Part shown: positions 6,897-64,000 of the stretch, piece by piece
How positions within the stretch are numbered: position 1 is the first letter of the stretch
Layout of the letters: each line of letters begins with the position of its first letter
Assembly: GCA_002812745.2 (NCBI GenBank)
Contig: NCSJ02000218.1
Span: 1-64,000, forward strand
Length of the DNA stretch: 64,000 nt
Reading direction: 5' to 3'
Origin: Scytalidium lignicola
Taxonomy: Eukaryota; Ascomycota; Leotiomycetes
The notes under the pieces: model-generated
Seen by the model: the letters and a program-made list of their open reading frames with translations, nothing else
What the model was told of the DNA's origin: nothing
Databases searched by the model: none
Program-made: the position numbers and the translations under genes

Positions 6897-8434
6897 AGGG
6901 GGTGTCAATGGATGGCCACTAAGTGGGACGTTTCATAAACGTTATATAATTTCGTGCTCTGTGGACATTCCCTTTCTAAATTGTCTATTTTTNATTCTTT
7001 TTTNAACTTCTCTTCTTTTTATCCTCCGTCGATGATCCGGAATATGGAGCCTGTTGAAGGAGCCAAATAGACCTGACCTTGTCGAGCCCATCCTGATGAC
7101 TTTTATTTAGAATGATTCAGCGATAATCTTAGGATCAGCTCAGATTTTATATTAGTTATTACTCAATTTGACAGTCTTTCATTTTCTAGTAAAAACTTTA
7201 TTAAGTGGTATAACTGCCTCGTTACTTTCTCTGCCTGTACTTAAAAACATAACTCTCTTTATGCTTTTAATATAACACTTACAAGCTTTTTAGCACGTGA
7301 AATTACGCCTCTAATAATACCACTCTAATATAAGAACTTCAATTATCTAGTATTTTTTCATACCTTTAACTCGAAGCACAGCTTGGTATTGGTTATAGAC
7401 ATAATGTCAATGAATAGCCTGTAATAACAGATCTCCATGGATCGCAACTTTGTTGCAACGCAGAAAGCCACCAACTGACGAACGGCTGCCTTTGAAAGAC
7501 AACGTGGAATTGAACGTCAACTTGGCTGTTTTTTATTTAAGTTTCTTACAGTCTTGATCTACATCGTCAATATTGACCATGTATAATGTTGCATTTTAAA
7601 TTGTTATGCTTTAATCACTGTTTCGAAAACATAGGAATCTAGTTGGTTATGTTATAGTTAGATGAATAAAGATTTTCACAAAAACCGAAATGAGTGGATC
7701 AATTTTGTTTAATCTCTATATTTTAAATGATTAAGTATATAATGGACTCCACTCAATTTGTTAGCCGTCCCAGAAAAAATCAATAATCCTATATTAATAT
7801 AGGTGGTCCCGCACTATCACTGAGATCTCACATCCATGATCATCCGAGATGAACTTCCACGCCGATCATCTCCCCCACGATCATCACTCCTGCGAACGTT
7901 GTGACCCACGTGGCCCTTGCTTACTTAAAATTAACGCAGGCCCACTTTTAGAAATAGTTTAAACGGTCCAAGTGTGGCTTATGCACGAACCCTTTTGCGA
8001 TATGCAACAAAACTTTTGTCCGTAAGGTCCATTATGGTTAGCAGGTATGTGGATACTTAGTGGAACTACCTGTTAACACTTGATGGTGTAGAGAACAGGT
8101 ATAGAAAGGTTTTAGAGGTATTACTGCTTAGGACTTAGGCTGTTTAAAGCTTGGAACCGAGTTAGGACATAGCCAGAATAGGAGTAGCGGATTTTCGATA
8201 GCTGCCTATGGGTTCCCCCCTCGGCGTAAATGAACATACATACATACATACATACATACATACACATTTGATGGTGGCAGGTCAATCTATGGAGAGGTAG
8301 GATGAGCGCTAACAAGATGGGCATGAAGGTAAAAGCCCACTCTACAATGCAATGGCTACATCTATAAGAGCTAAGCCTCTGGTATTTGGATAAATGTTGA
8401 GTGATGCCTATAATCAGATTCAGGATCAGCGAAA
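6897..8434. other. AT-rich intergenic region
   Basis: No gene recognised. The stretch 7050-7850 is strongly AT-rich, which fits either long untranslated DNA or a decayed repeat. Single N characters at 6993 and 7004 flank T runs. A CATA microsatellite lies at 8235-8264. Confidence 0.5.
8235..8264. repeat. (CATA)7 microsatellite
   Basis: Seven perfect CATA units plus CA. It is a likely length-polymorphic locus. Confidence 0.95.
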
Positions 8435-39306: not shown

Positions 39307-39857
39307 AGTAGCAGTATTGTTGCTGTGGCAAGATCAGTCAAACTGGTTGATACATAAGTTTTATAAAACCTTTCGAAAATAGAACAAAGTATTTTCTTCA
39401 GATTGAATATGATTTTTTACCTTTTAAAGTATGTTAACCTTACCATTTTGATAAGGGCCGAGGTTGTTTGTTGCGAATTAACAGATCACTGCACCTCCAA
39501 ATTGGAGGTACCGTTAAGAACTCCAGCCACGAAAATGAGTTCCATCGATCAAACTGAGCTAGACAAATCTCTTTGATGCCTGATAGTATGGGGTCCCCAA
39601 CTTGGAGATATTACAATACTATGGAATATGGAGAGTATCCTTTACATCAAAAGATTACACGATTGATTGGTCATTGAGGAGAGGAGAGGATTCTGTGTAA
39701 CATTTCTCCGCACTTATTGCTTTAGCCGGATATTTTCTTGCTGTCAATATCTATAAAAGAATAGGTTATGTATTTCCATTCAATCGGCATTCTACTGTTG
39801 ATAATTTATCAACTTTATCAATATAGGAATTACTGCCCCTATATTATCAGGCGTAAA
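39307..39857. promoter_or_regulatory. divergent promoter, hydroxyacid dehydrogenase / P450
   Basis: 550 bp between opposing starts. It includes GCCGAGG and CTCCAAATTGGAGGTAC, the latter holding a short palindrome CTCCAAATTGGAG (about 39491-39503). No CGG-N10-CCG site. Control of both genes from here is inference from layout. Confidence 0.4.
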
Positions 39858-41673
39858 ATGTCGACCCATCTTTTAATACCAGCTCAGTCGGTCATTACGT
39901 ATCCCGCCGTCCTGTTCTTCATTGTAACATCCATTATTGTACTTGCAATACGATGGTCAAATAAAACGGATATCCCAAAAATTAAAGGTCTCCCTGAACT
40001 TCCGGGCGTTCCTATGTTTGGGAGCTTGTTTCTTCTAGGAAAGTACCACGCGAGAAACTGTGCCAAGCTTGCTCAGACATACGGAGATGTCTTTCAGGTC
40101 CGCTTAGGGAATCGAGTAAGTTTGATATTCTGCAATTGACACGCTAAAGCTAAAATATGTTTTTCTCTTAGAGGTTCATTTATGCGAACTCCTTTGAAGC
40201 CGTGAAGGAACTCTGGATCAAGAATCAATCAGCATTGGTATCTCGACCACGATTTTGGACATTTCACGACATCGTTTCTGAGACTCAAGGCGTCTTTACA
40301 TTGGGGACGTCACCATGGAACGAGTCAGTAAAGAGAGCTAGAAAGGCAGCTGCAACTGCTCTTAATAGGCAGGCAGTTCAGACGTATCTTCCATTTATTG
40401 ATCTTGAATCTACCACCAGCATCAACGAGCTATTCCAAAATGCCAAGCATACAAACGATATTGATCCAAATGGTTATTTTCAGCGATTTTCTCTAAATAT
40501 CAGTTTAACTTTGAATTATGGTCTTCGTATTCAAGGCACTGTTCGAGATCATACTTTGAATGAAGTGGTTCAGGTCGAGCGGGAATTAGGGAATATTCGT
40601 GGAATTGCACATAATTGGCAAGACTATGTTCCATTACTCCGAATTTGGCCTGGTTTTAAATCAAATGCAATTAAGTTCCGAGGTAGAAGGGATGAATATA
40701 TTCTCTCTTTCCTAGAACAACTCAAGGAGAGAATTTCCAATGGGACTGACCGTCCCTGCATTGCTGGAAATGTACTGAAGGACACGGAAGCCAAACTAGC
40801 AGATAGTAAGTGAGAGATATTCAGGTCGGTTCATGATTAACCTAGCCATAGATGAGCTCAAATCGATTTGCCTAACTATGGTTGCTGCTGGACTCGATAC
40901 ATTGCCTGGAAACATTAACATGACAATTGCATACCTTTCCTCTCCTCATGGCCAAGAGATCCAGGAGCGCTTGTATAACGAGCTCATTCAATCTTATCCG
41001 GATCAAGACCCATGGCATGCATGTCTAGTCGAGGAAAAATCAGAGTTCATGCAATCTTTTATCAAGGTACATCTATTGCATCTACATATGGCTACTCTGA
41101 TAAAGAAAGGAATTCCATGACTAATACTAATATAGGAAGTCCTTCGATTCTGGTCTACTCTTAATTTGTCATTCAATCGACAAAGCATCAAAGATATTAC
41201 TTATAAGGGTGCTAACATTCCTGCTGGGACCCCTTTCTTAATGGTATAGCATCCTAAACATCACAAGTACACGACCCTGGCTGATAATATGGTAGAATAT
41301 GTGGGCCGCAAATCACGATTCCCAGCATTTTAAATCGCCCATGGAGTTTATTCCTGACCGCTTTATGGGAATCTCTGAAGCTGGTGCTGGGACTCAACAC
41401 TATGGCTACGGAGCTGGTACCCGAATGTGTGCTGGTGCTCATCTGGCGAACCGTGAGCTCTATGCCATCTTCACCCGTCTAGTTCTTGCATTCCATATTC
41501 GTGAGACAACAGAGGCGAAAGACAGGCCGATATTAGATACTATTGAGTGTAATTCGGTGCCAACAAGCATGGTTACTCAGCCTAAGCCATTCAAGGTTAA
41601 GTTTATTCCTCGTAATCCAGAACAGCTGGAAGGCTGGATTAAAAGCAGCGTTGAAAAGACTAGCTACTTGTGA
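39858..41673 (+). CDS. cytochrome P450, CYP504-like (phenylacetate hydroxylase type)
   Basis: Five exons (39858-40115, 40172-40805, 40852-41066, 41136-41243, 41296-41673) give 530 residues. An N-terminal membrane anchor (AVLFFIVTSIIVLAI) precedes a proline-rich hinge GLPELPGVPMFG. The I-helix oxygen site is VAAGLDT (about 308-314), the ExxR pair is E370-R373 (EVLRFW), and the heme loop is HYGYGAGTRMCAGAHLANRE with the thiolate C450. The heme loop with CAG-HLANRELY is characteristic of the phenylacetate/3-hydroxyphenylacetate hydroxylases PhacA/PhacB (CYP504) of Aspergillus. The enzyme should hydroxylate an aromatic acid at the ER. An upstream in-frame ATG at 39768 would add 30 residues. Confidence 0.88.
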
Positions 41674-42650
41674 ACATCTCTTTCCTGCCAAATAAGGACG
41701 TTAAAGTTAACTACATAATAAGTTAATAATTGAAAAGTGATTGAAATCCTAGCTACTTATCGATTGAACTCTAATTTTTAGTTCAAGCATAATCGATATA
41801 TATATGCGGATGTTTGCTTTGTCGTTCCTACGTTAGGTGTCCTGTTGCCCAATAACTCACCGTAAGACGTGGTTTAACTCCCTCCCCGACATCATTGCAC
41901 TGTTGGCCAATTACGCAATGGCATTGATTACGGTACTCGAAGCGTAACACGTGTTGTATCCACAGGCAAATTTTACTCTTTCCTTATTAAGAAGTTTCGA
42001 CTAACATCGCCATTTTGAACGCCTCACCTTTATACTACTTCAGCAACTGATATCAGTTTTGTTCACAGATTGATAGCACCGATAAAACTACGTATCAATC
42101 TGAGTGAATATATAGAAGTATATACCCGGATTTGTTCGTTGAATCCTTAATAACCATAATTGTTTTAAATGTAATGCAAGAGATTGTCAATGAGGTTTTT
42201 TTTTCTTTTTTGCAGTATCACAAGGCACTAGCTGTATTTTCAGTAAGAACTATGATGAAGTTACTAGCAACTAAGAGGTCGAATTTATCTAGTTTATCAT
42301 ATAACTAAGCTCATTGTTACTACAATAAAGTATGTTCTTTGAATGAAACTTACAAGTCATAGCTTTGACTTCATTCATGATTTCACTTATGATATTGTAA
42401 AGGAAAGGTTGATGTAACAGGATCAAATATCCCTAAAAGTAGCTTTGAAGAAGAATATTATCTTATAGTTTAATTATATGAGGGAGAAGAGTAGCAGTAC
42501 TAAGTCGTTTCTATTAACTGCACCTCTGTACTATGATAATACTAGACATTATTAAAGAAGGACAAATTATTTTTAATTCCCAATGATATCTTGCAGTTTA
42601 TGCTATCGATGTCACTCATAAAACCATACAACACTGCCTGCTCAATCCTT
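41674..42650. other. AT-rich intergenic region
   Basis: Convergent 3' flanks of the P450 and MFS genes, about 980 bp. No gene, repeat or operator recognised; a T-rich run lies near 42196-42212. Confidence 0.45.
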
Positions 42651-44435
42651 TTAAAGACTTGCTTTTCCCTGTGTCTCAAATGGAAGTAAAGCTACAAGAA
42701 GCCCTGCTACTATAAATAATGCACCGCTAGTATAAACCGGTGCCGAAGTCTCAAGATTGGCAAACATAGCAATGATTGGCTACGACAGAACGTTAGTATC
42801 ATTCATATCTGAAAATTAGAAGGAAAAAGAACTTACAGCCATAATCCCAAAAATTCTATTTGCTGTTGCTGTCAAAGCATTACCCGTCCCCCTATCCTTC
42901 GTCGGGAAGATTTCAGGCGTATATCCGTAAAGTACAGCATACATAATATTGCTGAAAAAATTGTAGGCGCAATTCCACCCCAGTAGCGCATTAGAAGTAA
43001 GCGCCGTAGTGGATGCGTAAAGGAACACACCAGTTAATGCTGTCGAAACAGCTAGTGTGCCCTTTCTCCCAAAACGAGGCAATTCTACCAAGGCTCCACC
43101 AATCATCGCACCGGGAACGCCAAGCACCGCAATTATGAGGGAGTTCCGGTATGTTAAGTAGGTGGATCCGTCGCCGAATTTAACGCCGCGAATAGATTGG
43201 AGATATGGGAGGAAGGCGTTGTAGAGGGGGTATCCAAGACCGATAAAGGCCCAGACACACATGATTAGGACTGTAGAGTAGGCGAGTTTCTTTGTGGCGA
43301 AGAGGGCGCGGACGTGGGTTAGGTTAAGCTTTTCGAGTTTGCGTTTCAGGGCTGCAGTGGCGTCGGTGCCCTGGGGGGTCTCACCGAGGGTCTCGCAGGC
43401 TTTGAGGTCTTCGATTGACACTGAGAGAGACGAGTTAGTGATTAAATATAGAGGTTTAGATTGAGCAGTTTGGAGGTTAGAGCACACAATTTGATGTTTT
43501 CCCATTTCTTCTAGCAACTTCGTGCACGATTGCAACGGCTTGTTCGTCGAGACCCTTGCCCATCAGGTACTTTGGAGATTCATATACCGTGAAGAATCCA
43601 AATCGGATGATGAATTCAATCAGAGATATTCCACCCATAGCAATCACAAAGTATCGCCAGCCCATGTTCTTTGATCTGGTGCATATTTCGTTCTCTTGAC
43701 ATGTCAGATTGCCGAGCAGAGGCCATGCGACCAGCGTAGCGATGACTTGGGCAATGGCCCAGTCGATTGAGAGAATAGTGAGCAGAAACTGATGCGTTCC
43801 GGGTAAGAATTCGAGGAAGACAGCTGAGTCTACGGGCAGATTGCCGCCGACGCCAAAGCTCCAGAGAGCAGCGAAGCATCCGATGGCAGCAAAGTTGGGA
43901 GATGAAGCGGCGATCATGCCGAAGACAGCTGTTACACCGAGTGTCAAGTTGAATGCCCAGCGTCGACCGAAGATATCACAGCCAAAACCCCAGAACATGG
44001 CACCTGCCAGGAGACCAATATTTTGTGCCAACGACAGTAGAGGCGGGCGCGATACGCTGAACTCGTTGGCGATAGGGGTAAGGATGAGGGAGGTGACGAT
44101 GGGCCACAGGTTGTCGTTGGCCCAGCCAAACCCGACGACGATGAAGAGTTGCCATTGGTACCATCCCATGCCAATGTCCTGGATCTGGGTTGAAAAAAGT
44201 CAGACAAAAAACCAAATAATACGCGTCAACATTTAAATCATAGCTATCTCACAGCACGGTTCAGCACTCGAGCCTTTGCTTCGTAGACAGGATCAATGGT
44301 TCCCTTGGGGATTGCGACAGCATCGTCCTGATACAGATACTCCAACCCCGCTTCGTCACTCTTGATATCTGCCTCTGCTCCCGTGCGGATGGCCTTGTTG
44401 ATTGAATCTGCATCTCTCGCTGTCGTATCTACCAT
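42651..44435 (-). CDS. MFS transporter, SV2/organic-acid type
   Basis: Four exons on the minus strand (44253-44435, 43488-44184, 42837-43420, 42651-42779) give 530 residues. After about 60 hydrophilic residues come twelve predicted helices. Motifs include WANDNLWPIVTSLILTP, GCDIFGRRWAFN (MFS loop 2-3 signature), GVGGNLPVDSAVFLEF and YTPEIFPTKDRGTGNAL, the pattern of SV2-like and aromatic/organic-acid permeases in fungi. It should be in the plasma membrane. It is convergent with the P450 and may import or export its substrate or product (inference). Introns are 68, 67 and 57 bp. Confidence 0.88.
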
Positions 44436-49237: not shown

Positions 49238-51417
49238 TTAATTGAAGTATTCCTTGACCTTCTCAAGATTGGCCGATAACTCCGTGACGTTTGCAGCGAC
49301 TGAATGAACGAAAAAGTCAGGTCTTATCAAAGCATATTTTGTAGAACGGTCAAAGCGACCCTCAATGGCTCTCTGCTGATACCCTCTAATAGGAGAAATG
49401 CCTTCTTTTAACAACTCTTCGGTGCTACATGGGTAGTAGATATCTTGTTCTTTATGTCTAATAGATGAAGAAGCGTCAGAGAAACCGTTCAGACTGTAGA
49501 ATGTTACATCATTCATCGTGAGGATGTGTTCTGGTAGGTTGATAGCTCTTAATATTTCTTCAATTACTTTCGAGTCTGCATCTTTCTCTTGCCTTACGAA
49601 AACCAACAATGCAAGGTGGGTTAGATCTCGGAGGAATACCGAGTCAGATAGTTTTGGTTCTTCTCCATGTTTTCGGATCAATATCTGTGCAATCTTGCGA
49701 CCGCCCCCTGATTGCTCCAAAAAGAATCCATCAGGGCATGTGTTAGAGTTGTATATCAGCTTGTCGCGGAATGCCCGACGTGTTCTGAAATGTGCGATAC
49801 TGGGAAACCACCACAATACACGCATACACATTCGATAAAACAGGCCGCTAAAGTAGGATCGTTGATTTACAATACTACCGTTCAATTTTGTTGCTTGGGT
49901 CGCAGAATTCCAAGCATGACGGCGCTCTTGACTCCATCCTCTGAGAATCTTCTCTTGTAGTTGAGGTGAGATCTTCATATTCGACATCATAGCCAGTCTC
50001 CAGCTTAGTGCTTGTGCGTCTCGAATACCGGTCGCAATACCTTGGCCGCCGAATGGTGGAAAGACGTGAGCAGCATCTCCAATCAGCATTGTTTTACCAG
50101 AGTACCATCGATTTACGACCTTCGTGGCAAATCTATTTTAAACAGTCAATAAATGGCACCTCTAGGCGGGAGTGAAATAGCTGATTACGTGAATGGTCTG
50201 CAACGGATAACCTTGATGCATTCTCTAGGAAACTCAATGATGGAGTTCTTGAGCTTTCTTGAAAACGTAGAGCCTGGTATGCTCGTCCAGGGTCCAAATT
50301 GCTTCCAAAAATCGCATTCAACATCTTTGAGGGTATCGTCAGGCTCAACTGAATATTCATGCCTAAAACAAGGAACAAGTTAGCATTAATATTAAGTAGA
50401 GAGGTTCTGGAACATACCTCCAGAATCCAGAACCTGAGGGTCCAAATCTTCCACTCACTGCTGGCCGTTTCGAATCGTTACAGAAACTGTGTAATCTTAG
50501 TCACACAATTTGCAATGTTAATAAAAAACAAATCTTACTGGAATCCGCTGGGCCAGAATATGTCGTGTACTTGCTCTGGCGTGTACCCTAATTGCCATAG
50601 AGGAAATTTAGGATGTGATTTTGGGGTTGGTGTGGTGATATGAAGGTTTGCGGCGACCCAAGTCCCAACATAGGGGTAGACACTCTCTTCCTGTCTAATT
50701 CCTTCAGGCTCTAAGAACCTCTTCCTTACAACGCCTCGTTTACCGTCGGCGCCAACAAGCCATGTAGTACGAATGGAATATTTTGTACCGTCCTGTGTCA
50801 TGTACTCAATAATTGTGCAGTCGCCTTTCTGCTCCCTCGCTATCACTTCGCAACCGCTTCGAAGCTCGCATGTAGACAGGTCTTTTAGGAGGTTCCTGAT
50901 CTCTCTTTCTGTAATTGAAACGATTAGATATTTTGATCATGAAGTAACACTGCGAGATTGAACGAACCGTAATTTGGCTGAAATTGGGTAATGTTGTTTG
51001 AGACTGATTGTTCTGCCCAGTCGACGGTGATGTCAAAGTTCATAAAAGTAGATTGTCTAAAGTTCCCTCGATGAAAGTGAAGGACTCCGATATCTGCAAA
51101 TATTTCTGTCAATAAATTGTGATAAGTTCCCAAATTATGTGTAGATACCTTTGCCAATTCTCTTTGTCAGGCCTTCGCCAATGCCTATTTGATAGGAGAT
51201 GCGGACGGCATCCCCATTCACGACGATGCCCCGTGGATCTTCACAGACCTCAATCTCTTTCTCTAGAATTATGGTCTTGCACAGATTATTGTTAGCGCAA
51301 AATTGAACATAGGATCGCAGAAACCGACAGTACCTTGATATTCATGCGACCAAGGAGGGCTCCTAGCGCAAGGCCACTTGGTCCACCTCCAACAATGAGC
51401 ACTGTTGTTTCTTCCAT
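49238..51417 (-). CDS. class A flavin monooxygenase (phenol hydroxylase / MhpA-like)
   Basis: Seven exons on the minus strand (51334-51417, 51149-51275, 50968-51093, 50539-50908, 50418-50486, 50189-50362, 49238-50132) sum to 614 residues. The N-terminal FAD motif is VLIVGGGPSGLALGALLG; the second FAD block is MLIGDAAHVFPPFGGQGIAT, and the NADPH/FAD region TTWLVGADGKRGVVRK holds a DG motif. The C-terminal thioredoxin-like extension to YALIRPDFFVHSVA is typical of phenol 2-monooxygenase and 3-(3-hydroxyphenyl)propionate hydroxylase relatives. Such enzymes add a hydroxyl group ortho to a phenolic hydroxyl, giving catechols. It lies directly before an extradiol dioxygenase on the same strand, the classical order of action. 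Donor 3 is GTTCGT, unusual. Two CGG-N10-CCG sites lie upstream. Confidence 0.9.
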
Positions 51418-51573
51418 ATTGTTAATATACTGCATTTTTATTTTATCCAGATTATTCCAGCGAAGAATAGAAAGAGCGAATTGGTGCATGACCCAATATA
51501 AATTCTGCCAAAAATATTCTAGTAGCCTTAGAATTGACACAAATAATAAAATTGAATGACCTTTAGTGTTTAT

Positions 51574-51589
51574 CGGAATGTTATCTCCG
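51574..51589. promoter_or_regulatory. CGG-N10-CCG candidate operator 1
   Basis: CGGAATGTTATCTCCG, 157-172 bp upstream of the flavin monooxygenase ATG. The spacing suits a Put3-type Zn2Cys6 dimer. Confidence 0.6.
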
Positions 51590-51717
51590 TACATACATGA
51601 CCGAGATGCTATTAGCTATAAGGTTTTCTCGATATAGTGTCTATTATCTGTCTTTTGGGCATTGTTGGGGCGATAATTCTAAGATACGATTTTACTGTAG
51701 CCTAGGGGACACAACTT

Positions 51718-51733
51718 CGGATATAACATTCCG
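51718..51733. promoter_or_regulatory. CGG-N10-CCG candidate operator 2
   Basis: CGGATATAACATTCCG, about 300 bp upstream of the flavin monooxygenase ATG. Confidence 0.6.
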
Positions 51734-51841
51734 ATAGCAAAGCTGCCAATACTCCAGTTCTAGCTCTCGAATTATTCAAGCTCGAATGTGCGTATAATCA
51801 AGCTAGTCAAGATATTTTATTTACAATCTAGTATTTTTGAT

Positions 51842-52931
51842 TTAAGCTACACCTGCTTCTGGTCTCACCGGCCCCCAAATGTACATTGATGCCGCACCTT
51901 CGCTCTTCCATCTGCCTGTTGGATTGTCAATATTTACCAAATCTCCATCCGCGTAATGTTCGATTGCAAAGCCACTAGGATCCTTCCAGTAATCGAAAAT
52001 CTGGGAGCCTAGAATATGTCTTCCAACGCCCCAGATGGGTGTATACAACTTGCTAAGAAGATATTCGTGCCCAAGAAGCTGCGTATCAAAATCCTCCACT
52101 TCAAAGGAGCAATGATGCATTCGATGCTTGTCTTGGAAACCCGAAGGTGCACGAGATAGAAAGAGAGTGTGGTGGTCGCTGTACTCCTTTCCATGGTCCA
52201 AATGCATGAATGTCAGCGAATCAACTTCCGTGCCGTCTCTTTCTTCCCAGAGAATGTCCGAAGGCACGAAGTTGAAATATTGAGTGTAAAACGCTACATC
52301 CTCATCAAACATGCTTGTTATGTAGCCATAATGGCCTAGCTTATGGACCATTGCAGGGCCTAGTTTGAATCGCTGAAATTCACCTGTTTCAAGAATCAGC
52401 ATTAGGCCGTATATATTAATATTCTCTCAAAGACTAAGACTCACCTTTTCTAAATTTTTCTAATGCAGTATTGTAAGGCCCCCTATGTACCTCTGTAGCG
52501 GATACAACCTTTTCTGGCGCTGGACGCTCTTCCACACCCCATATAACATGAATCTTGGTCCCTGATGGAGATGATATTGTCACAATCCTGCCGCCACCTG
52601 GCCCATCATAAGGAATAACCGAAGATGCACCCTCAAGTTTTGATGCTTTTATTAAATCATCCTCTGTCTCGGCGATGTATGCAGCACCGTCAAAATGCTT
52701 TTCTTTATCATTGCTCTTGCGTGAGACGTATGCACACATATCCTTCCCATATCCACGGTAGTATACGGTGTCTTGCTCACGCCCGGCTTCCACGAATCCG
52801 AAGTCCTTGGCAAACTGATTGAATTTATTCAGGTCGGGATGAGAAGCATAGACGTGACTTAGACGGTTCAGTTGAATCTTCTCTGGAGAGTTAACTATAG
52901 GTTGAATGCGACCAGGCGTTATTTTCAACAT
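51842..52931 (-). CDS. two-domain extradiol (type I) ring-cleavage dioxygenase
   Basis: Two exons on the minus strand (52445-52931, 51842-52383) joined across a 61-bp intron give 342 residues. Two vicinal-oxygen-chelate domains are visible. The N-terminal one (about 22-135) includes LSHVYASHPDLNKFNQFAKD and lacks metal ligands. The C-terminal one has H180 (KLGHYGY), H252 or H253 (RMHHCSFEV) and E304 (FAIEHY) as the 2-His-1-carboxylate iron site, plus H285 in GRHILG and Y294 in FDYWKDPSG, close to the extradiol signature. These enzymes open catechols next to the diol (meta cleavage). The best general match is to 2,3-dihydroxy-cumate or catechol 2,3-dioxygenase families. Fungi rarely use this route. 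It shares a promoter with the BVMO. Confidence 0.88.
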
Positions 52932-53168
52932 ATTGCACTGTTGAGGTCGACGAGGAGATATCACTGTGACAGAAATGAATTGTCGGTTTATGGTGATATA
53001 GATAGATAGTAAATGATAATATTTACTGAGCTCTCGGGACCGGAAATATCTAGTATCTCTTTCGCGTATTACTACTACAGTATATCTTGCCGCTAAGAAG
53101 TGCTTCCCTTGATTTGTGGGACTCCGGCTCCACAAGAATCTGGGGTGCATCTAACTTCCCACATCCAT

Positions 53169-53184
53169 CGGAAACGCAGTACCG
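53169..53184. promoter_or_regulatory. CGG-N10-CCG candidate operator 3 (7-bp arms)
   Basis: CGGAAACGCAGTACCG within the longer perfect inverted repeat CCATCGG (53165-53171) and CCGATGG (53182-53188). This is the strongest palindrome of the set. Confidence 0.7.
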
Positions 53185-53303
53185 ATGGTTGCTGGGATAC
53201 ACTATTCAAGATGATCTTTTGCGGTGGCAAAATTGATAGCTTGAAGATTGGATGCTCCTCAAACTAAGTCAATACAAGACTTAAAACGTGGAGTAGATTT
53301 TCT

Positions 53304-53319
53304 CGGCTCCATCTATCCG
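53304..53319. promoter_or_regulatory. CGG-N10-CCG candidate operator 4
   Basis: CGGCTCCATCTATCCG, 154-169 bp upstream of the BVMO ATG. Confidence 0.6.
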
Positions 53320-53472
53320 CTACGATTCAGACATGTATACTGGCATTCGTATTTTGCTCTTCTATATCTTATTAAATAATGCCCATTTTTAATACTCTTC
53401 TTCCTCAATGCTACTTTAGTTTAAACTATTAACTTTGAATTGTTTCTAATCCCAGAATATTCCTTGATCACC

Positions 53473-55447
53473 ATGGGGTCAATCGTCGCCCCAGAGCAGT
53501 ACGTTGTCAAAGACCAATATATTGCGAAGCCCAGACCTATCAGGATCATCACTATTGGTGCTGGTATTTCAGGGATTGCCTTTGCATATAAAGCTCGATC
53601 CCTTGAAGACGTTGAATATGTGATCTATGAAAAGAATGCTGATGTAGGCGGTACTTGGCTGGAATCTCGATATCCTGGATGTTCTTGTGATATCCCAGCT
53701 CATTCTTACAGCTATCCATGGATTGGAAATCCTAACTGGTCTAAAGTGTGAGTGAAGAGGTTGTCTAATTGATCTCTCAGCTAACTTGGGATGGTAGATA
53801 TGTAGGCGCAGAGGAAATTTGGAACTTTTACAGAGATAGAGCTCAAGAGTACGGTGTATATGAACACACAAAATTCAACCATAAAGTTGTCGGAGCTGAG
53901 TGGAATGAGGAAGCGGGGATGTGGACTGTAAGAGTCGAGAACGTCCTTACAGGTAAGATATTGGAGGACTCAGCAGAAGTTGTTATCAATTGTACTGGAG
54001 CATTAAAGTAAGTTCATCTTAGATCATTATTCTGATCAAATACTAATTGAAATAGCAACTGGAAGTGGCCTAACATTCCAGGGCTTCATTCATTTAAAGG
54101 AACGCTTGTGCATACCGCTCGCTATCCCCAATATCTTGATCTGACAGGAAAGACGGTGGCTGTCATTGGTGCTGGTTCATCTGCGATTCAAATTGTTCCG
54201 ACTATCCAACCAAGTAAGTGAGCTCATCCTCAGCTTAATACCATCGACTAACGAAAAGAACTTTAGTTGTCAAATCCCTCCTCAGCTTCACCAGATCTCC
54301 AACCTGGATTGCACCGCAATTTGCTGGCCACCTTGCTCCGAATGGACGCGCAACAACATACACCGAAGAACAAAAAGAGAAATTCCGCGCAGATCCTGAA
54401 TATCTGCGAGAGTACCGACAGGAGATCGATCATGCTGTAAATGCGAGATTTCCCAATTTCTACAAGAACTCTCCACAACAGAAGATTGCAAGAGATCTTG
54501 TCGAGAAAGGAATGAGGGAGCGGCTAGCAAAGCTAGATGCAACCCTTCGGGAAAAGCTCATTCCAAATTTTGATGTTGGATGCAGACGGTAAGTGGTCAA
54601 TATATCTGCTAGGTAGCTGGTCCATCGGGCTAACTGTTTAACGTTACAGTGTCACCCCTGGTGAGGGCTACCTTGAAGCATTACAGGAAGATAACGTGGA
54701 GGTAGTCACAAGTGGGATCCAGGAGATTAATCATGAAGGGCTCGTCACTCAGGATGGGAATTCCCATCCGGTTGATGTTATCATAGCAGCTACCGGCTAT
54801 GATACATCTTATGTTCCACCCTTCCCGCTCATTGGGCGAAATGGTGTTGACCTTAGAGAGAGATGGTCAAAGACTGGAGCTGAGGCTTATTTCACATGCG
54901 CTGTTCCACATATGCCAAATTACTTCAGTAAGTCATGTATTTCTGCTCTTGATAAGATATCACATTCTAACCTTCTTATAGTGGTCGTGGGACCTAACAC
55001 ACCCATATCGAACGGTTCCTTAATGCCAGCTATTGAAGCTCAACTCGAATTTGCTCTTGGATTTGCAAAGAAGATTCAAACCCAGGGAGTGAAATCAGTG
55101 GTTGTTAGTCAGGAAGCTACAACAGAATTTAACGATCACAAAGATGCCGTCATGGAACTTTTAACATTTTCGGGTAATTGTAACAGCTGGTATGTGAAAT
55201 TACTGAGTATCATCACCCCATAGATAAATTTCTAATATTTCCTAGGTACAAAGGGGGAACTTCCAATGGCCGGATCATTGGACCGTGGCCGGGCTCGGTG
55301 AATCATTTCTTGGAGACCATTAAGGAGCCACGCTTACAGGATTTTGATTTTACCTATGACAATGCAAACAGATTTGCCTATCTTGGTAGTGGCCTCTCAT
55401 TCAGGGATATTAAGAAGGAATCTCTTGGATGGTATATTAGGGCTTAG
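53473..55447 (+). CDS. Baeyer-Villiger-type flavin monooxygenase
   Basis: Seven exons (53473-53747, 53798-54007, 54056-54213, 54267-54588, 54650-54927, 54982-55189, 55246-55447) sum exactly to 550 residues. The FAD motif IITIGAGISGIAFAYKA is followed by NADVGGTWLESRYPGCSCD, an NADPH motif TVAVIGAGSSAIQIVPTI and the ATGYDTS block. The expected FxGxxxHxxxWP fingerprint appears as SFKGTLVHTARYPQ, so P replaces the usual W-[PD] pattern in part. The family inserts oxygen beside a carbonyl to form an ester, or oxidises aromatic aldehydes or ketones. No membrane segment, so probably cytosolic. It is divergent from the extradiol dioxygenase and 1 kb ahead of the carotenoid-oxygenase gene. The substrate is unknown. 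Confidence 0.9.
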
Positions 55448-56489
55448 ATTAATCTTGATTACTAGTCCGTTAGCTTGAGGATAGAGTTTATGTTGAACAT
55501 GGTTTCTAGCGTCCTTGGATGGCCAATGTAAATAAAGACTCTTATGTCTTGAAACACAAAAAAATTTGTAATCTTATTTGATCAAAATTTTTCTTTCTAA
55601 CTCTATCTCCTGCAAGACTCGTCTGATATACAACTCTTACGACATTATCTGGTATAGAGTTTGCCCTACAAATATTAGCGTATTCATACTGCCAAGATAA
55701 TACCGTTAAGTAACTACCTCGATATTATCATATCTTTGTGTTATCAGTATATTTTCAACATAATATCTAATCTCTATTACTTTTCCTTCCCTCGATTTGA
55801 GATGCTCTTAAACCGGATAAAATTTTCCAATTTCCAATTTCATAAATATTAAATAACAGAATTAAATAACAGAATTAAATACATGGGAGTGGAAACAGCC
55901 TGGTTACAATTTAGAAATGGAACTTTACTATACTAACAAATCCATATAGTTGAGTATTAGTATTTACAGACAGATCACTTTATAGTACTTACATCTAAAC
56001 ACCTGAATCTAGAGGTCTCATCACTCAATGCTTAGCCCTGTAATCATATTCGAAATATATTCCATATGTCAATTTTCCTACTACTCAGATTCAGTTGTAT
56101 TGCAACATGAATCGTATTGCCATTGGTTGTACTGTAGGTTAAGCCAAAGTTCTCAGCTTATGGGGCAGATTCTGGGTGGCAAATTTGCCAAAAGACTCGT
56201 CGGCTTCTTGAATCCGAGACACTTAACCCCCCGCACATCCTTTCATATCCCCAGCTTTTTAAAATTTGGAGCTTCTTTATCTCCACAACATGGGATACTC
56301 AACAATCACATTGCGGAGTGCTTCGGTGCGCTGCATCCGCGTAATCATGCAGCAATACCTGTGTAGAAGTGACCCTTCATCGTGTTATTTATATTTAAAA
56401 TTTAATGAGAAGGCATTCTCTATGTATTATTTTACAGATCGGCACAATCCCGGTATATAAGCAATCTTAGCAACTTCTGTACTATCACC
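55448..56489. promoter_or_regulatory. spacer and promoter of the cleavage oxygenase gene
   Basis: About 1 kb, AT-rich on the left with a repeated GAATTAAATA(AC) stretch near 55850-55880. It holds one CGG-N10-CCG site at 56201-56216. A near miss, CGG-N10-CCA, lies near 55815. A TATATAA-like sequence at about 56454-56460 lies 30 bp before the ATG. Confidence 0.5.
56201..56216. promoter_or_regulatory. CGG-N10-CCG candidate operator 5
   Basis: CGGCTTCTTGAATCCG, flanked by T and A, about 275-290 bp upstream of the cleavage oxygenase ATG. Confidence 0.6.
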
Positions 56490-58283
56490 ATGGCACACAT
56501 TTTTGAGCTGGCACAAACCCTTTCGCCATCTCCAAATTACGAAAAGGGTGCCAAAAGCAGTAACCAAGTGAAGTTCCCTACGACTGAAGTATTCCATGGC
56601 TTCAACAAACCATCCCGCATAGAGGCGGACGTAGAGAACCTTGAAGTCACTGGACAGATCCCACAAGATATCGATGGTACCTTCTTCCGTGTTCAACCAG
56701 ACCATCGATTTCCACCCGTCTTTGAGGATGACACCCACTTTAATGGAGACGGTAATGTAACAGCCATCCGAATCAACGACGGCCGAGCCCACTTCAAGCA
56801 ACGGTACGTCCATACGGACCGATATAAGTATGAGAGCAAATATGGCAAAGCGCTGTTTGGCAAGTACCGAAATCCGTATACCGATAATGAGGCCGTGAAG
56901 GGCGTGATACGAACAGCAGCTAACACGAATATCTTTTTTTGGAGGGGTATGTTGTTGGCGACAAAGGAGGATGGACCCCCTTATGCGATGGACCCGAAGA
57001 CCTTAGAGACAATTGGAAGGTATGATTTTGAAGGGCAGGTGTTGAGCCCGACATTCACAGCGCATCCGAAGTTTGATCCGAAGACTGGAGAGATGGTGTG
57101 CTATGGTTATGAAGTAGGTCTTTAAATCTTTAATGATTTTGATAAATTCTAACTTAAATTTGCCATAGGCTGGTAGTGACGGAAATGATGGATCCTGTGA
57201 TATGGTGGTATACACTATCAATGCAGATGGTGTAAAAACAGAGGAGTGCTGGTACAAAGCTCCTTTCTGTGGTATAATTCATGATTGTGGGATTAGTGAC
57301 AACTGGGTTGTGCTTCCGATGACACCACTCAAATGCGACCCTGAGCGTTTGAGCAAGGGTGAGAATCATTGGTCTTGGGACCCAAATGAGGACCAGTGGT
57401 ATGGGCTTGTCCCACGTCGAGGCGGGAAGCCAGAAGATATTCGATGGTTTCGATCGAAGAATGGTAAGTCACTACTCATCCTCCCCATAAGGTAGACATT
57501 CTCTAACAGTTATCAGCCTTTCAAGGACATACCGTTAGTTGCTATGAAAACCCAGACGGCAAAGTTGTTTTCGACCTTACTATTGCTGACGGAAACATAT
57601 TCTTCTTCTTTCCTCCAGTTGACACCCCTTCGGGGACAGTTGCTCGACGTAACAAATTACAAAACAAGACTACTCGCTGGATATTTGACCCAGAATTGCC
57701 CTCTAACTCCTGGGTAGATCCAGCCGAGGAGTTTGACACATTTTCTGGTGAATTTTCCCGTATAGATGATCGTTTTGTGACAATGAAGTATAACCACTAC
57801 TGGCAAACTGTCATCGACGGTGCAAAGCCATACGATTTTGAAAAGTGTGGATCTCCCGCAGGAGGACTTTTCAACAGTCTTGGTCACTTCACTTGGGATA
57901 AATCAGTCAGTGAAACATTTTGGGCAGGACCCTGCGGAACATTCCAAGAACCCGCTTTTATTCCACGGTCAGGCAGTACTGAGGAAGCTGACGGTTATTT
58001 AATCACACTGCTGAATCATTTGGATGTGCTTCGGAACGATATCTGCATTTTTGATGCACAGAAGATTGCGCAAGGTCCAGTAGCGGTGATTCACCTCCCT
58101 TTCAAGTTACGGCTCGGACTTCATGGCAATTTTGTGGAGGAAAGCGAGATCAAGAGGTGGTCTGAGAAGAGGGAAAAGGAGATAGGTCCCGTGAAGCCAG
58201 CAAGTTCGCCGTTGCTGTGGCAGAAAAATATGGGATATACAAATGGTTTAAATGGGACAAATGGCGTCAATACGCATAATTGA
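56490..58283 (+). CDS. carotenoid/stilbene cleavage oxygenase (CAO-1 / lignostilbene dioxygenase-like)
   Basis: Three exons (56490-57113, 57169-57463, 57517-58283) give 561 residues of the RPE65/carotenoid cleavage family. Four iron-ligand histidines are identifiable: H192 (TAHPKF), H246 (IIHDCG), H311 ([10 protein letters not shown]) and about H509 (LGLHGNF). Motifs [16 protein letters not shown] and [14 protein letters not shown] match the stilbene-cleaving branch (bacterial lignostilbene dioxygenases and Neurospora CAO-1), where a lysine and a tyrosine bind the phenol; K159 in TKED and Y106 in RYVHTD are candidates, from memory of the family. The reaction splits an interphenyl double bond into two aldehydes with O2. 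No signal peptide, so intracellular. It is convergent with the regulator and carries a CGG-N10-CCG site upstream. Confidence 0.88.
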
Positions 58284-58428
58284 CGTACTGTACATAGTTT
58301 GTTTACATATCTAATTTTCATGGTAGGGTGCGTTTGACTTTGATTCTTGATATTAATTCAGAAGAATCAAGCTAGATACTTGCCTTGAATCCATAGTTGT
58401 TTTATCAAATCCTGGGTATCAAATGATA

Positions 58429-60873
58429 TTACAAAGTTTCATCTGTAAATAGATGCATCATCCCCAAGCGAGGATCGAGATTCACAGTCTCAAAAACATC
58501 AAATTGTGATCCCTCAAAGTTACTACAGCACTGTTAGATAAGTTGTCTTCGGAGGAAATTTAAATGAGAAAAATCTTACAAGTCCATATAATCTAGATAA
58601 CTTCTTGAAAATTGAGGTTGTGGTAGCATACCAGCATTGGCATCTGTATTCTGCTGTTGATGAAGCGAGTCTGGTGGATTATGTTGCATCTCCGGTTGCT
58701 GCAGTAATACTGACTCCAGAACACCACTCTCGTGGATTCTAGCTTCAAACTCAGGTGTGACCTTCTCGGACCACCCAATCTTTTCCATCTCAGTTACTGT
58801 CTCGAGACAGAACCCTAGCATCCCCTGGTGCTCAATCCTACCAAGCTTTTGCAGTGCCAGAATCAAAATCCACATCACCTCTCCAATGCAATGACAGTCG
58901 AGCAATATTAAACTTGACAATGTTTCATCCTCTCTCATACGCTTAATAATCTGCACAGATCTTTCGGCAGCTTCTATACATGTATCACTCAGCTCCTGAT
59001 AACATTTCTTTTTAGCAGGAACCGTGATGGGAGCCGTATTTGAAATCGTGAAAAGGAGAAAGGGACGTGTGACAGAGATTATAGATGTCCAATATCGCAG
59101 ATGTAGTATCGCTACGGAACGCTGGTGTTGAGGAGGAAGGGAGGAGTCCCAGTCAAGGTAAGCAGGCACGCTATCTGACCACTTCTTTAGAGCACTCAAA
59201 CTCTGAGTGACTCGACTTATCGGTAGCCGACCACCAACATGTGCTGGCTCAAGGAAGCATTCATGACTGATCTTCTTCCTGAGCCGTGTCAACGCCACTG
59301 ACAGCGCTTGATAACTTAATGGCATATTCGGACCTGGGTCTAATATCTACAACAGCGATTTTAGCAAGGTGATTATTTCAAGGTTATACATATACCTGCC
59401 TGTTCTAATGCTGAGGAAGTTTTCATGAAAGTAGGATCATCAACAATTGCACATGGATAACCAAATCGAATGGCCATTTCATGGTCAAGTACGTAAATTG
59501 TCCACCATATTCGTCTCCCTCTTTCTCGTTCAAGCGAGTCATTGGCTCGAAAAGAGACATCTCTGTGCAGTCCAAGGGTTAATCCAACCCTCACTGCCGT
59601 TCCGAGATATAGGTAGGCTGCAACACTGTAACACATTGCGTGATTTGCCAGACTCTGCGATGATCAGTACTAGTCAGAGTGGTCCTATAAGCCACATACC
59701 AGCAATGCGAAAGCCCTCACGCTTTCAATATCCGCTTCATCCCCTGCCCTTAATGAGAGATCCTTTGCCATAGCAAGGTAATCTGTCGCATATTTATTGT
59801 CCCAGGGAGTAGTGCTATTTAAGTCTACCATTTGATCTCGCGGAGCCATACTTCCTAGAGCAAATATTGAGTAGAGAGAACATAGCCACGAATAGCTTGC
59901 TGTTGTGCCTCGATCTTCCAAAGTGTGATCAAGGGCAGTATAAAACTGCTCGGGGGGATAGAACCAGTAGAGGCAATGTATTTGATTAAAGAAACGTTCT
60001 ACATAGCGCATACATAGCTGACGACATGGAAAGTATCTCTCTACATGGTTGGCAATTGCACTTTCTGGTGTAGCTGGTGGAAGTAGTCCGGTTCTGAGAG
60101 GTAATATGACTTTAGGGTCCGCGTGAACTGAGGTATCACTTGCCATTCTGGCAGCATGATTCCAACGAATGGAAGAGTCAGCGCCGACATAGCCTGCAAA
60201 GGTTAGTAGCGTACTCCTCATTTTAAATTGATGGATGATTGAAACTCACGATACTTCCCCATAGAGTCTAAGATCATGCAACCCAATTCTTCTTGCAGCA
60301 GCGGGTGCTCGTCTCGCTCCATCATCTCATGACTTTCGTTAGAATCATCCAATACTTGATCTACATCGCTGTGGTCACTCTCCATGGGGAAAACCTGGGG
60401 TATTTCCCGTGATGGTGGAATTAGGTGACCATCGTCCAGTCTTACAAGAGCCGCTTGGATGTTCTCAACAGTCAATTCAGGGAGCTCCTCTTCGGAGACG
60501 AATCGCCGAAGCAGCTTGATAGAAGACTCATAGACCTCCTCTGAGACTCGATAGAAGGGTCGCTTTCTATTTTTTAGATTTATTTCACAAGACGCGCCGA
60601 TCGATTCACAATACTGGCATACGCCATTTTCTAAGCGTCGTTCATCAGTACCGATGACCCATGTGTTTGTTGTATGAACCTACCAATGCCAACACACTAC
60701 ACGTAATCATCTTGTTAACCTCAGGGGATCCAAGGAAGCCCACCGTCTACTACAGTACTTGCCTTAGTTTTACGGACTTTGCAAGCCTCGCAGCTCTGGC
60801 GTGCCCGCTTCCTCGGCTGCTCCTCCAGTGTCTTCTCATGCGGTCGTTTTAGGACAAGGTCAACTGAATCCAT
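58429..60873 (-). CDS. Zn2Cys6 transcription factor, probable cluster regulator
   Basis: Seven exons on the minus strand (60763-60873, 60684-60696, 60250-60630, 59700-60193, 59396-59654, 58580-59339, 58429-58522) sum to 703 residues. The zinc cluster is only seen after splicing: SCEACKVRKTK, then a 13-bp microexon giving CVGI, then ENGVCQYCESIGASCE, spacing C-x2-C-x6-C-x7-C-x2-C-x6-C. Basic residues PRKRARQS precede it. The PF04082-like domain includes YVERFFNQIHCLYWFY, LGLHRDVSFRANDSLERERG and RRIWWTIYVLDHEMAIRFGY. The first intron has a GC donor (AAG|GCAAGT). A 673-residue form results if the last intron (58523-58579) is not removed. A CGG-N10-CCG site 131 bp upstream suggests self-control. 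Confidence 0.88.
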
Positions 60874-61003
60874 GATGATAGGTCTAATTGTCAAGGGTGC
60901 ACGGATTGTGGAGACAATATCGTCTGACTGTCTGATCATGAATAGGATGTAGGATTCCGGGGGAGGTCTTTGGATTTTGGAATTATAACACCGTGAGGGG
61001 TGT

Positions 61004-61019
61004 CGGTAACTTGGATCCG
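61004..61019. promoter_or_regulatory. CGG-N10-CCG candidate operator 6 (autoregulation)
   Basis: CGGTAACTTGGATCCG inside GTCGG...CCGAC 5-bp arms, 131-146 bp upstream of the regulator ATG. Confidence 0.65.
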
Positions 61020-61992
61020 ACTAGTATTTAGTCTGTAGAAATTGTGGCGACTTCAATCATCTCCGAGGCTTGCTGAGTTAAATAGCCGGAAAAAGGGGTA
61101 ACATTGTATTTAACTTGTGACTATGTACTAGAGAATTCGTCCAACTTTAAAGGCATCATAAATTCAGCCAATTTTTATCCGTATCTACCTTTTGCCCTTC
61201 GAAAATCAAGTCCAATGAACAAATACCTACCGTAAATTGATCTTTCATTTCCATATTATCTTCCATCCATCCTCCGAGTCTCCAAGTATCAACTTCAAAA
61301 CCTCACAATTACAAAGAAAATAACTAATCAACTCCCTCATTAAAATTTAGTGTTTATGCTGCATGGTAGTTCCCGAATCATTGTTTTATTTTATTTTTAG
61401 CCTGTTGCTAATATTCTATGCTATAACATCGTCCTAGTCTTTAGCCAGCTTTAGCTTATGAATATTAATAGTCAAGTATGAAATTCTCGGCCATAACGTT
61501 GCTGAATCATTTGTGTTACATGTCATCCTAGAATTTGGATAGTCATTCCCCTAGGAATGAAGGATTTGTTGATGCTGAGAGCTTCTGTTGGGGTGACTCG
61601 TTTGAAGCTTGATGTTTCCTGAATTACCTTGCTCAGATATGTGTGTATAGGCAATAGGTTAACATGTTTACTCCTTGTATCTTCTATGACCGCACTGATT
61701 TTCCATACGTTCCTTAACTTAAGACCTCATGAACACTCAAAGAGCTTGAGGATACATAATCTTCGCCATTCCTATTCCGAGTAATTGCCCTTGCCCTAAG
61801 CTACGGTCCCAACATCTATATTATCGGCACCACTGTCTCACCCTCATCTACAAGACGATATTCAAGACTGGGATCTCATTCCGTCTTTCCTATAGCACAA
61901 ACCTAAGGACACAAATGGTGATAATGATCCGGGGCGGGGGGTTAATTGACAATTTAAACGCGGTGGCAAAGTTAGACAGCGGGAATAAGAAC

Positions 61993-62008
61993 CGGCAAGT
62001 TGGATCCG
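61993..62008. promoter_or_regulatory. CGG-N10-CCG candidate operator 7
   Basis: CGGCAAGTTGGATCCG, about 258 bp upstream of the MFS ATG. Its right half TTGGATCCG is identical to site 6. Confidence 0.65.
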
Positions 62009-62265
62009 CCCAACAAACGCGCCCGTCCCAGCGCGGTGGTTGATGGGTCTCGAATCACAACCCCGCAAGAGCTTAATTCCCCCCAGATTACCCCGGACCC
62101 ATCGACATAAGAAGCAACTCCTCATCCCCAGCAGGAAGCAATGGAGTAGATCGTTCCTTCATATTCTTATTCTTTTCTTTCTTCTCCTTACTGTACTTCG
62201 ATTACTTCTCTCTACTCCTACTGCTACCAGGACAGATATAATTTCTGCCCCAAGCTGTCGCCAAG

Positions 62266-64000
62266 ATGCCCCCTGCTCAAGTCACCGACTGCCCTGACAC
62301 CGAGGGTCAAGCCATAGGAGAAGGCCAACGTTCCACCAGTCTTCGAGCCAACTGGCGCATCCTCGCAGTCACTTCATATTTGGGCATTTCTCTCTTTGAG
62401 TATGGCTTCGACAAAGGTGCCATCGCAGGCTTCCAGGCCATGCCTGGCTTCCTTATGGTCTTTGGATACAAAGCCCCAAACGGCCATTGGGGGATCCATG
62501 TAACGTCTCATATCCTATATATCTCTCTCACAATACTTACATGATGTTTAGGCTGGACCTCAGCAAATCATCTCCTCCTTCATGATCCTTGGTGCTTTCA
62601 TTGGTTCCTTGATGACCGGCCCTATCGGCGCTCGTTTGTCCCGTCGCTATTCGCTCATACTTGGGTCAGTACTCATGATTGTGTCTATCGTAATCATGAC
62701 TGTGACCACCTCAATTGGAGGACTATACTTCTCCAGACTCCTAGTTGGCATTGCAAATGGTCTCATGCTCAACTTCTCCATGGTCTACCTGCAGGAATGT
62801 GCACCTCCTCATCTGCGAGGTCTCTGTTTTGGCGTCGTGACTAGCTGGATTGCTATTGGGACTACAGTTGGCATGGTATGACTACCTCGCACATCAATTG
62901 ACCCATGGTAAAAAGAAAGACCAATTAACAGTGATACTGATAGATTATCAATAACGCCACCGCTGATATGATCAGCCGGAAAACTTACCAGATTCCTCTT
63001 TACGCCTGTTTTCCTGCACCCGTCATTCTCATCTTCACCCTTCCTTTCCTTCCGGAATCCCCTCGTTGGTTACTTCACCAAAATCGGGCAGAGGAAGCAT
63101 TACGCAGTCTGCGCTTCTTCCGCAAGGGCGCGTATGATGAGGTAGCCCTCCAGCAGGAGTTCGAGGAGATGAAAGCCATATCTGCGAGAGAGGCGGAGAG
63201 CCATAGAGATTGGCGTCTCATATTTGAGCTCTTCAAAGGCCCCAACCTGCGTAGAACAATCATATGTCTTGGAATCGGAACGGCCAACGCTGGTGTTGGC
63301 GCCATGTTTATCCTTGCATTTGGGACGTACTTCTTCCAGATCGTGAGTCACTTCAAATACCCCCTCCTTTTCTTCCTTATGAAGTAATTTTGTCTGACAA
63401 ACACACGTAGGCGAATATCGGGGATCCATTCAAGTGGATCATTATAACCAACTGCATCGGTCTAATTGGTCTCTTCATGACCTGGTTCGTCGTGACACGG
63501 GTTGGACGCCGACGCATAATTCTAGCAGGATGTTCCATCTGCACAATTACCATGCTCATCATGGCTGTTATTTATACTGCTTCTGGAATCCCGAAAAATA
63601 ATGCCGGCATTGCGCTTGTGGCCATCGTTAGTATATACGTCTTTGGCTTCAACTTCGGTCTAGAACCATATGTGTACCTGGTTGCGGGTGAACTTCCTTC
63701 TCAGAACCTGAGAGCATACACGATGGGTTTGTCCACCGCAGTGAGCTTTGCTTTCGCTTGGTTGTGCGCTTTCACTACACCTTACTATATCAACCCAACT
63801 GAGCTGAACTGGGGTCCTAAGTATGGATATATCTGGTTTGGTAGTGGTGTCATTGTTACCTTGTTTGTATACTTTGCATTGCCAGAGGTCAGAGGCAGGA
63901 CATTAGAGGAGATTGATGAGATGTTTAGGAATAAGGTACCAACAAGAGATTTCCAGAGGTATGTCTGTGTGGAGATTGAGGAGGCTAAACAGAGGGGCTT
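62266..64000 (+). CDS. MFS sugar-porter-family transporter (quinate/hexose type), 3' cut by window edge
   Basis: Four exons seen (62266-62499, 62552-62875, 62944-63342, 63410 to the window end), all in phase 0, more than 516 residues. Sugar-porter signatures are visible: GFDKGAIAGFQAMPGF, the loop GARLSRRYSLILGS, RLLVGIANGL, PESPRWLL, RVGRRRI, the VAGELPSQNLRAY block and LPEVRGRTLEEIDEMF, the PETKGRTLEE equivalent. About twelve helices are expected, in the plasma membrane. Fungal relatives carry hexoses, disaccharides or quinate; glycosylated aromatics are a possible cargo given the neighbours (inference). It is divergent from the Zn2Cys6 regulator and has a CGG-N10-CCG site in its promoter. 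The stop codon lies outside the window. Confidence 0.9.

Follow-up and report, generated by a model that had tools for sequence, protein, structure and literature searches.

A CGG-N10-CCG palindrome before six adjacent genes of a putative phenolic-catabolism cluster in Scytalidium lignicola

Genes and palindromic sites at the locus

The DNA considered here, referred to as the window, is a stretch of 64,000 nucleotides from the ascomycete Scytalidium lignicola (contig NCSJ02000218.1 of assembly GCA_002812745.2, positions 1 to 64,000), which towards its right-hand end carries six adjacent genes, one of them for a Zn2Cys6 regulator, whose promoters share the palindrome CGG-N10-CCG. The questions posed by this arrangement are whether so regular a set of sites could have arisen by chance, which protein is likely to read them, and what kind of pathway they would serve. 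The genes are the following.

49238..51417, minus strand: flavin adenine dinucleotide (FAD)-binding aromatic hydroxylase (PF01494), 7 exons, 614 amino acids; Pfam FAD_binding_3, 133.5 bits
51842..52931, minus strand: VOC-fold extradiol-type dioxygenase, 2 exons, 342 amino acids; Pfam Glyoxalase, 32.4 bits
53473..55447, plus strand: Baeyer-Villiger-type flavin monooxygenase, 7 exons, 550 amino acids; Pfam FMO-like
56490..58283, plus strand: lignostilbene-dioxygenase-type cleavage oxygenase (RPE65/CCO family), 3 exons, 561 amino acids; Pfam RPE65 (PF03055), 440.7 bits
58429..60873, minus strand: Zn2Cys6 regulator, 7 exons, 703 amino acids; GC-AG first intron and 13-nt second exon
62266..64000, plus strand: MFS transporter (Sugar_tr), 535 amino acids; the coding sequence continues to contig position 64061

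The palindromes, to which no strand is assigned, are placed relative to these genes as listed below, where distances to the ATG are estimates based on gene models from a small splice search that were trimmed by hand.

51574..51589: site at -157 of the hydroxylase ATG
51718..51733: site at -301 of the hydroxylase ATG, an inverted near-copy (15/16) of the site at 51574
53169..53184: site in the divergent promoter of the dioxygenase (-238) and the Baeyer-Villiger-type enzyme (-289)
53304..53319: site in the same divergent promoter (-373 and -154, respectively)
56201..56216: site at -274 of the cleavage-oxygenase ATG
56324..56339: site at -151 of the cleavage-oxygenase ATG
60493..60508: CGG-N10-CCG within the regulator coding sequence, probably there by chance and left out of the count
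61004..61019: site at -131 of the regulator ATG, with one exact genomic copy elsewhere, on contig C419
61993..62008: site at -258 of the transporter ATG

A preliminary description of this DNA had listed seven promoter sites within some 3.4 kb of promoter sequence. Each of the seven is exact at its coordinate, including the one claimed before the cluster's own Zn2Cys6 gene, and an eighth, at 56324 in the oxygenase promoter, had been overlooked. The promoter sequence is taken here as four regions (51418-51841, 52932-53472, 55447-56489 and 60874-62265), which together make up 3400 bp with a GC content of 38.5%. Every one of the four holds two sites, and in three of them the members of the pair stand 144, 135 and 123 bp apart.

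Enrichment and shared sequence of the sites

The feature that most clearly sets these regions apart is the spacing of the half-sites. Inverted CGG-Nx-CCG pairs number eight at x = 10 and 0 or 1 at every other spacing from 0 to 25, and neither everted copies (at most 1 per spacing) nor direct copies (at most 2) show a peak. Against the eight sites found, the expected number is 0.16 under a Markov-1 model (maximum 3 in 2000 resamples), 0.19 by base shuffles, 0.26 when the genome-wide rate is used (3589 sites in 46.85 Mb) and 0.27 when the rate is taken from noncoding-like DNA (9 sites in 114.6 kb), the last sample consisting of positions 1-49000 of the window and 20 stretches of the genome, 14 chosen by contig number alone and 6 around paralogues. 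The Poisson probability of at least eight sites lies between 1e-11 and 5e-10 across these backgrounds, and is near 2e-4 even after multiplication by 26 spacings, three arrangements and about 4000 loci. The preliminary description had proposed a single regulatory code shared by the six neighbouring genes, to be checked by a genome-wide count and a measure of promoter enrichment, and with eight sites found for 0.16-0.27 expected this proposal is well supported statistically.

On a larger scale, the window as a whole contains 16 copies of CGG-N10-CCG for a shuffle mean of 4.8, with 16 or more in 0 of 100 shuffles, and the palindrome occurs genome-wide about once per 13 kb, not far from the chance rate of roughly one per 10 kb given earlier. 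The accompanying remark that no sites occur in the promoters of genes at 4.5-48 kb held in large part: six of the seven sites in positions 1-49000 lie inside frames of at least 100 codons, but that at 25286 lies outside. The densest 3.4 kb of the sampled background (stretch L031) has 5 sites, four of them in coding-like DNA, and in 10 kb of the same stretch there are 7, of which 6 are coding-like.

The sites also resemble one another beyond their fixed triplets. When the eight 16-mers are oriented freely, the information that they share is unmatched by any of 300 shuffles of the inner bases, and with 8-bp flanks added the observed value is equalled by 5 of 300. A CGGAT end is found in six of the eight cluster sites and in 4 of 26 background sites (Fisher P 0.003). 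The pattern common to the sites at 51574 and 51718 is found nowhere else in the genome. N10 sites ending in TTGGATCCG number 6 in the genome, two of them in the cluster, and since the counterpart with spacing 11 is equally frequent (also 6) this extension by itself is not enriched genome-wide. Taken together, the eight sites would define a code made up of CGG-N10-CCG, often with a CGGAT end, with the proximal copy at about -125 to -157 from the ATG, the position that it occupies in 6 of 8 promoters when those of the six cluster genes and of two genes on contig C419, described below, are considered together.

The palindrome has a second and quite different context in this genome. A miniature inverted-repeat transposable element (MITE)-like repeat of about 206 bp has terminal repeats GTCGCGGTAANNNGTNACCGGA, each of which includes CGG-N10-CCG, and 52 matching pieces were listed in a genome search. 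Its end repeats, sought at up to 2 mismatches, gave 50 matches versus 2 for the control, none of which falls between 49 and 62 kb, and in that search no copy was seen in any cluster promoter. One copy lies on the cluster's contig about 8 kb beyond the transporter (L001:8287-8490, C131:72287-72490), another about 3 kb from the promoter on C419 (L035:1776-1981, C419:19076-19281) and a third about 15 kb from a paralogue of the regulator (C410:160351-160583). The spread of such elements may in principle have supplied sites that recruited phenolic-catabolism genes to a single regulator, so that a dispersed regulon would be partly transposon-seeded, but this idea is very doubtful, the coincidence having been spotted post hoc, and such repeats may simply accumulate in regions of this kind.

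The regulator, the enzymes and a candidate target in trans

The regulator gene beside the sites can be read as coding for a complete DNA-binding protein. Residues 28-56, CEACKVRKTKCVGIENGVCQYCESIGASC, fit the arrangement C-X2-C-X6-C-X5-12-C-X2-C-X6-8-C, the zinc cluster (PF00172) scores 26.4 bits for a cutoff of 21, and the Fungal_trans middle domain (PF04082) scores 68.4 bits for a cutoff of 23. By both domain measures the predicted protein is an intact member of the Gal4-type Zn2Cys6 class, a class that binds CGG-triplet palindromes, the kind of element enriched in the promoters linked to this gene. The exons encoding the zinc cluster (60684-60873) are joined through the GC-AG intron and the 13-nt exon, and only so are all six cysteines read through; a splice model restricted to GT-AG introns, in which the third cysteine is lost, was dropped. 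Many homologue records are without the zinc-cluster domain, and the same GC-AG and 13-nt exon splicing is perhaps the cause.

Homologues of the regulator with at least 49% identity are found on one contig with a homologue of the oxygenase or the dioxygenase in at least 10 species among the matches listed, as read by eye and with the proviso that a common large contig does not prove close linkage. These are Aspergillus lucknowensis, Echria macrotheca, Helicocarpus griseus, A. egyptiacus, C. newfieldiana, P. didyma, P. inaequale, Penicillium robsamsonii, Penicillium sp. IBT 31633x and A. nanangensis. In the last three, regulator and oxygenase carry consecutive locus tags (N7447_009283/009284, N7475_008372/008373 and FE257_011110/011111, respectively), and in H. 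griseus regulator and dioxygenase are four locus tags apart (AJ79_09199 to 09203). The DNA-binding domain and the linker that follows it are nearly invariant across eight aligned homologues (8 of 101 matches, picked for a zinc-cluster domain in their records), from which a conserved spacing of the half-sites is predicted.

Of the enzymes, the cleavage oxygenase is the most closely placed, as it matches the solved structure 9lp3, 'Lignostilbene dioxygenase', with 788 bits and other family members with about 420 bits, and on this measure and its Pfam score it appears to be a member of the stilbene (lignostilbene) dioxygenase family. It is adjoined by the regulator and the transporter. The Baeyer-Villiger-type monooxygenase matches cyclohexanone monooxygenase chains with 181 bits, while family matches for the dioxygenase and the hydroxylase are broad only. 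Scores of the dioxygenase for the HpaD and catechol 2,3-dioxygenase models are below cutoff, as are all NCBIfam matches of the hydroxylase, the best of which is to a 3-(3-hydroxyphenyl)propionate hydroxylase subfamily model. In the dioxygenase, H180, H252/H253 and E304, assigned by eye, presumably correspond to the His-His-Glu pattern. Pfam searches of the six genes recognised neither a synthase family nor a proline-catabolism family. Gentisate dioxygenase and fumarylpyruvate hydrolase are likewise not among the six, only some of the neighbouring frames having been sampled.

The 16-mer of the regulator's own site, at 61004, recurs exactly at one other genomic position, C419:22231; by chance about 0.01 copies would be expected (0.07 summed over all eight sites). 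This copy shares a 339-bp divergent promoter with a second N10 site, between a vanillyl-alcohol oxidase-like (VAO-like) gene and a cytochrome P450 gene (L035:2764-7038), and the two sites stand at -135 and -200 from one ATG and at -125 and -190 from the other. The chance of two N10 sites in a 339-bp promoter is 3e-4, and that of one additional site is 0.026. The best chains for the VAO-like product are an 'oxidoreductase' (381 bits), a 'probable vanillyl-alcohol oxidase' (about 340 bits) and a 'vanillyl-alcohol oxidase' (293 bits); its gene model is uncertain at the first splice, and the P450 stretch includes N positions. The pair is a probable target in trans of the cluster regulator, and as such it would tie stilbene cleavage to lignin-type phenol oxidation. 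The linkage of regulator and enzymes in other fungi, the near-invariant DNA-binding domain and the exact copy on C419 add support to a shared code.

Some further features lie around these loci. Of the frames sampled beside the cluster, the one to its left is a DM9-repeat gene, and those to its right are a short cupin and an NPHP3_N-type (NLR-like) gene, the latter at L001:4547-5203. Some 5-9 kb left of the cluster, at 39768-44169, lie a P450 gene and an MFS transporter gene, in a stretch without an N10 site. An aldehyde dehydrogenase gene near the regulator paralogue on C410 has one N10 site 211 bases before its apparent ATG. No RNA family was found in the window. Single N positions occur at 6993, 7004, 22052, 23641, 23690, 29301, 29323, 30450, 45515, 46185 and 48691, most of them next to an A or T run, and have the appearance of assembly artefacts arising at homopolymers or joins.

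Interpretation, alternatives and known systems

What, then, would such a switch control? The six genes probably act together, as a cluster under their own Gal4-type Zn2Cys6 activator, in the catabolism of plant phenolics that are stilbene-like or derived from lignin. In the proposed scheme a dimer of the regulator would bind CGG-N10-CCG at one or two places per promoter and, when a phenolic inducer is present, would activate all six genes, its own included, and probably also the VAO-like and P450 pair on the other contig. Cleavage of a stilbene-like C=C bond by the oxygenase would give two aryl aldehydes, the Baeyer-Villiger enzyme would convert a carbonyl group to a phenol-yielding ester, and the hydroxylase and VOC dioxygenase would prepare the ring prior to extradiol opening. 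Binding by this particular regulator, activation, autoregulation and the nature of the substrate are inferred from the DNA, and the suggested order of reactions (C=C cleavage, Baeyer-Villiger oxidation, hydroxylation and ring opening) follows the enzyme families.

Several observations weigh against this interpretation. The dioxygenase and the transporter have no site closer to the ATG than those at -238 and -258. The extended pattern CGGNNNNTTRNATCCG occurs at 29 genomic sites, 4 of them in the cluster, and its reversed control also at 29; three of the 25 sites outside the cluster were inspected, and besides the promoter on C419 these were near-matches in coding frames, a DnaJ frame on C639 and a cullin frame on C629. 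Sites with up to 2 mismatches to that at 61004 number 14 (2 exact) versus 12 for the control. Near-matches as a class are no commoner than the reversed control, and the exact copy on C419 is support from a single locus. The paralogous loci give no echo of the pattern: the 10-kb stretch around the regulator paralogue at 175-177 kb of C410 (pieces 34-42% identical, L016:4984-7041 and L017:760-2636) has zero N10 sites and no enrichment, and the neighbourhood of a second oxygenase on C177 (pieces 45% and 35%) is also without enrichment, its nearest N10 site lying about 2.8 kb off in coding-like DNA. As replicates these two loci speak neither for nor against the N10 code. Elsewhere, the dioxygenase homologue of A. 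nanangensis is on a different contig, and the same is true of the regulator and dioxygenase in P. paradoxum and of the regulator and oxygenase in Coniochaeta sp. 2T2.1. Finally, in the accessible text of PMC8929692, the regulator gene GTF1 of Candida parapsilosis is itself without the motif of its product, whereas the regulator gene here has one.

The alternative that survives best is that the sites are functional but are bound by another Zn2Cys6 protein, such as a broad regulator or a paralogue, with the cluster's own regulator using another sequence or acting as a heterodimer. The genome is rich in proteins of this type, as 59 pieces match the cluster regulator alone, and spacing does not identify the binder, a Put3-like spacing being known from a different pathway. 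This alternative is nonetheless unlikely, given that the clustering of sites falls exactly on the genes beside this regulator, its own promoter included, and that linkage to these enzymes recurs in the regulator family across fungi. Less probable again is a regulator that binds the sites but mainly represses, or that controls biosynthesis instead of catabolism. An Aspergillus nidulans homologue, AN7061 (54% identity), has been placed by others in a secondary-metabolism cluster (pkg), and extracts of an AN7061 overexpression strain inhibited bacteria and C. albicans, according to the portion of PMC12511407 available; against this, the six genes stand for cleaving, oxidising and transport functions with no recognised synthase, and in PMC8929692 the measured regulators of comparable clusters work in catabolism. 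That the pattern is a product of chance, base composition, local duplication or repeat relics was already disfavoured and is scarcely credible, for although the two hydroxylase-promoter sites are inverted near-copies and a repeat with CGG-N10-CCG ends has a copy at contig position 72287-72490, the enrichment stands against three kinds of background, spacing 10 alone is raised and the repeat ends are absent from 49-62 kb.

With catabolism of phenolics under a cluster-encoded activator as the preferred interpretation, the closest known counterparts are the gentisate-catabolism (GC) clusters, which in the available part of PMC3914699 combine the stilbene dioxygenase gene sdoG with the C6 factor gene ctfG, and the stilbene dioxygenase (SDO) clusters, which are one of 13 degradative types of Gluck-Thaler and Slot 2018 as cited in the portion of PMC10735191 consulted. 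As described there, genes for an oxygenase of the same family, a C6 regulator, a sugar-type MFS transporter and a flavin hydroxylase are neighbours in these clusters, as they are here. They differ in that GC clusters have gentisate dioxygenase, fumarylpyruvate hydrolase and aldehyde dehydrogenase, whereas the present locus has a VOC/extradiol-type dioxygenase and a Baeyer-Villiger-type enzyme instead, and it seems to be a variant of the stilbene dioxygenase clusters with enzymes of these two types. No binding motif is given for the regulators of GC and SDO clusters in the accessible sections of PMC3914699 and PMC10735191, and none for the C6 regulator of SDO clusters was found in a literature search of limited reach that drew on partial texts.

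How does the site compare with those of regulators that have been characterised? The spacing equals that of Put3 of Saccharomyces cerevisiae, which in the part of PMC5729217 available recognises the palindrome CGG(N10)CCG and acts in proline utilisation. A phmmer search of the regulator against PDB chains with E up to 1, which is a weak test, returned ClpC and three GAL4 entries and no Put3. Put3 chains are present in the PDB. The earlier label 'Put3 type' is therefore apt for the spacing but not for the protein, for which there is no Put3 chain at that threshold and no proline gene among the six, and the system is better described as working like a pathway-specific Gal4-type regulon with Put3 spacing than classed as Put3.

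The accessible text of PMC8929692 describes C6 regulators that are linked to hydroxyaromatic clusters and bind palindromes in front of the genes of these clusters, and Gtf1p and Otf1p of C. parapsilosis bind GGAN7TCC and GGRN10WCC, respectively, with binding proven by gel shifts. The likeness to the present locus extends to a Zn2Cys6 regulator, hydroxyaromatic catabolism, palindromes before the cluster genes and, for Gtf1p, a regulator gene within its cluster. The bases between GG and CC number 9 for Gtf1p and 12 for Otf1p but 10 for the present sites. The quinate regulators qa-1F and QutA are also pathway-specific Zn2Cys6 activators encoded inside a catabolic cluster, and the qa-1F motif, a 16-mer given as GGATAATCGATTATCC in the same portion of PMC8929692, has 12 bases between GG and CC where the cluster sites have 10. 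The general arrangement is thus already known, and what is specific here is the precise DNA switch over the cluster. Many fungi exposed to plant defence phenolics carry SDO clusters, with which the C6 regulator travels. A site code with a spacing unlike those of the two measured C. parapsilosis hydroxyaromatic regulators can be scanned for in every genome that keeps the regulator.

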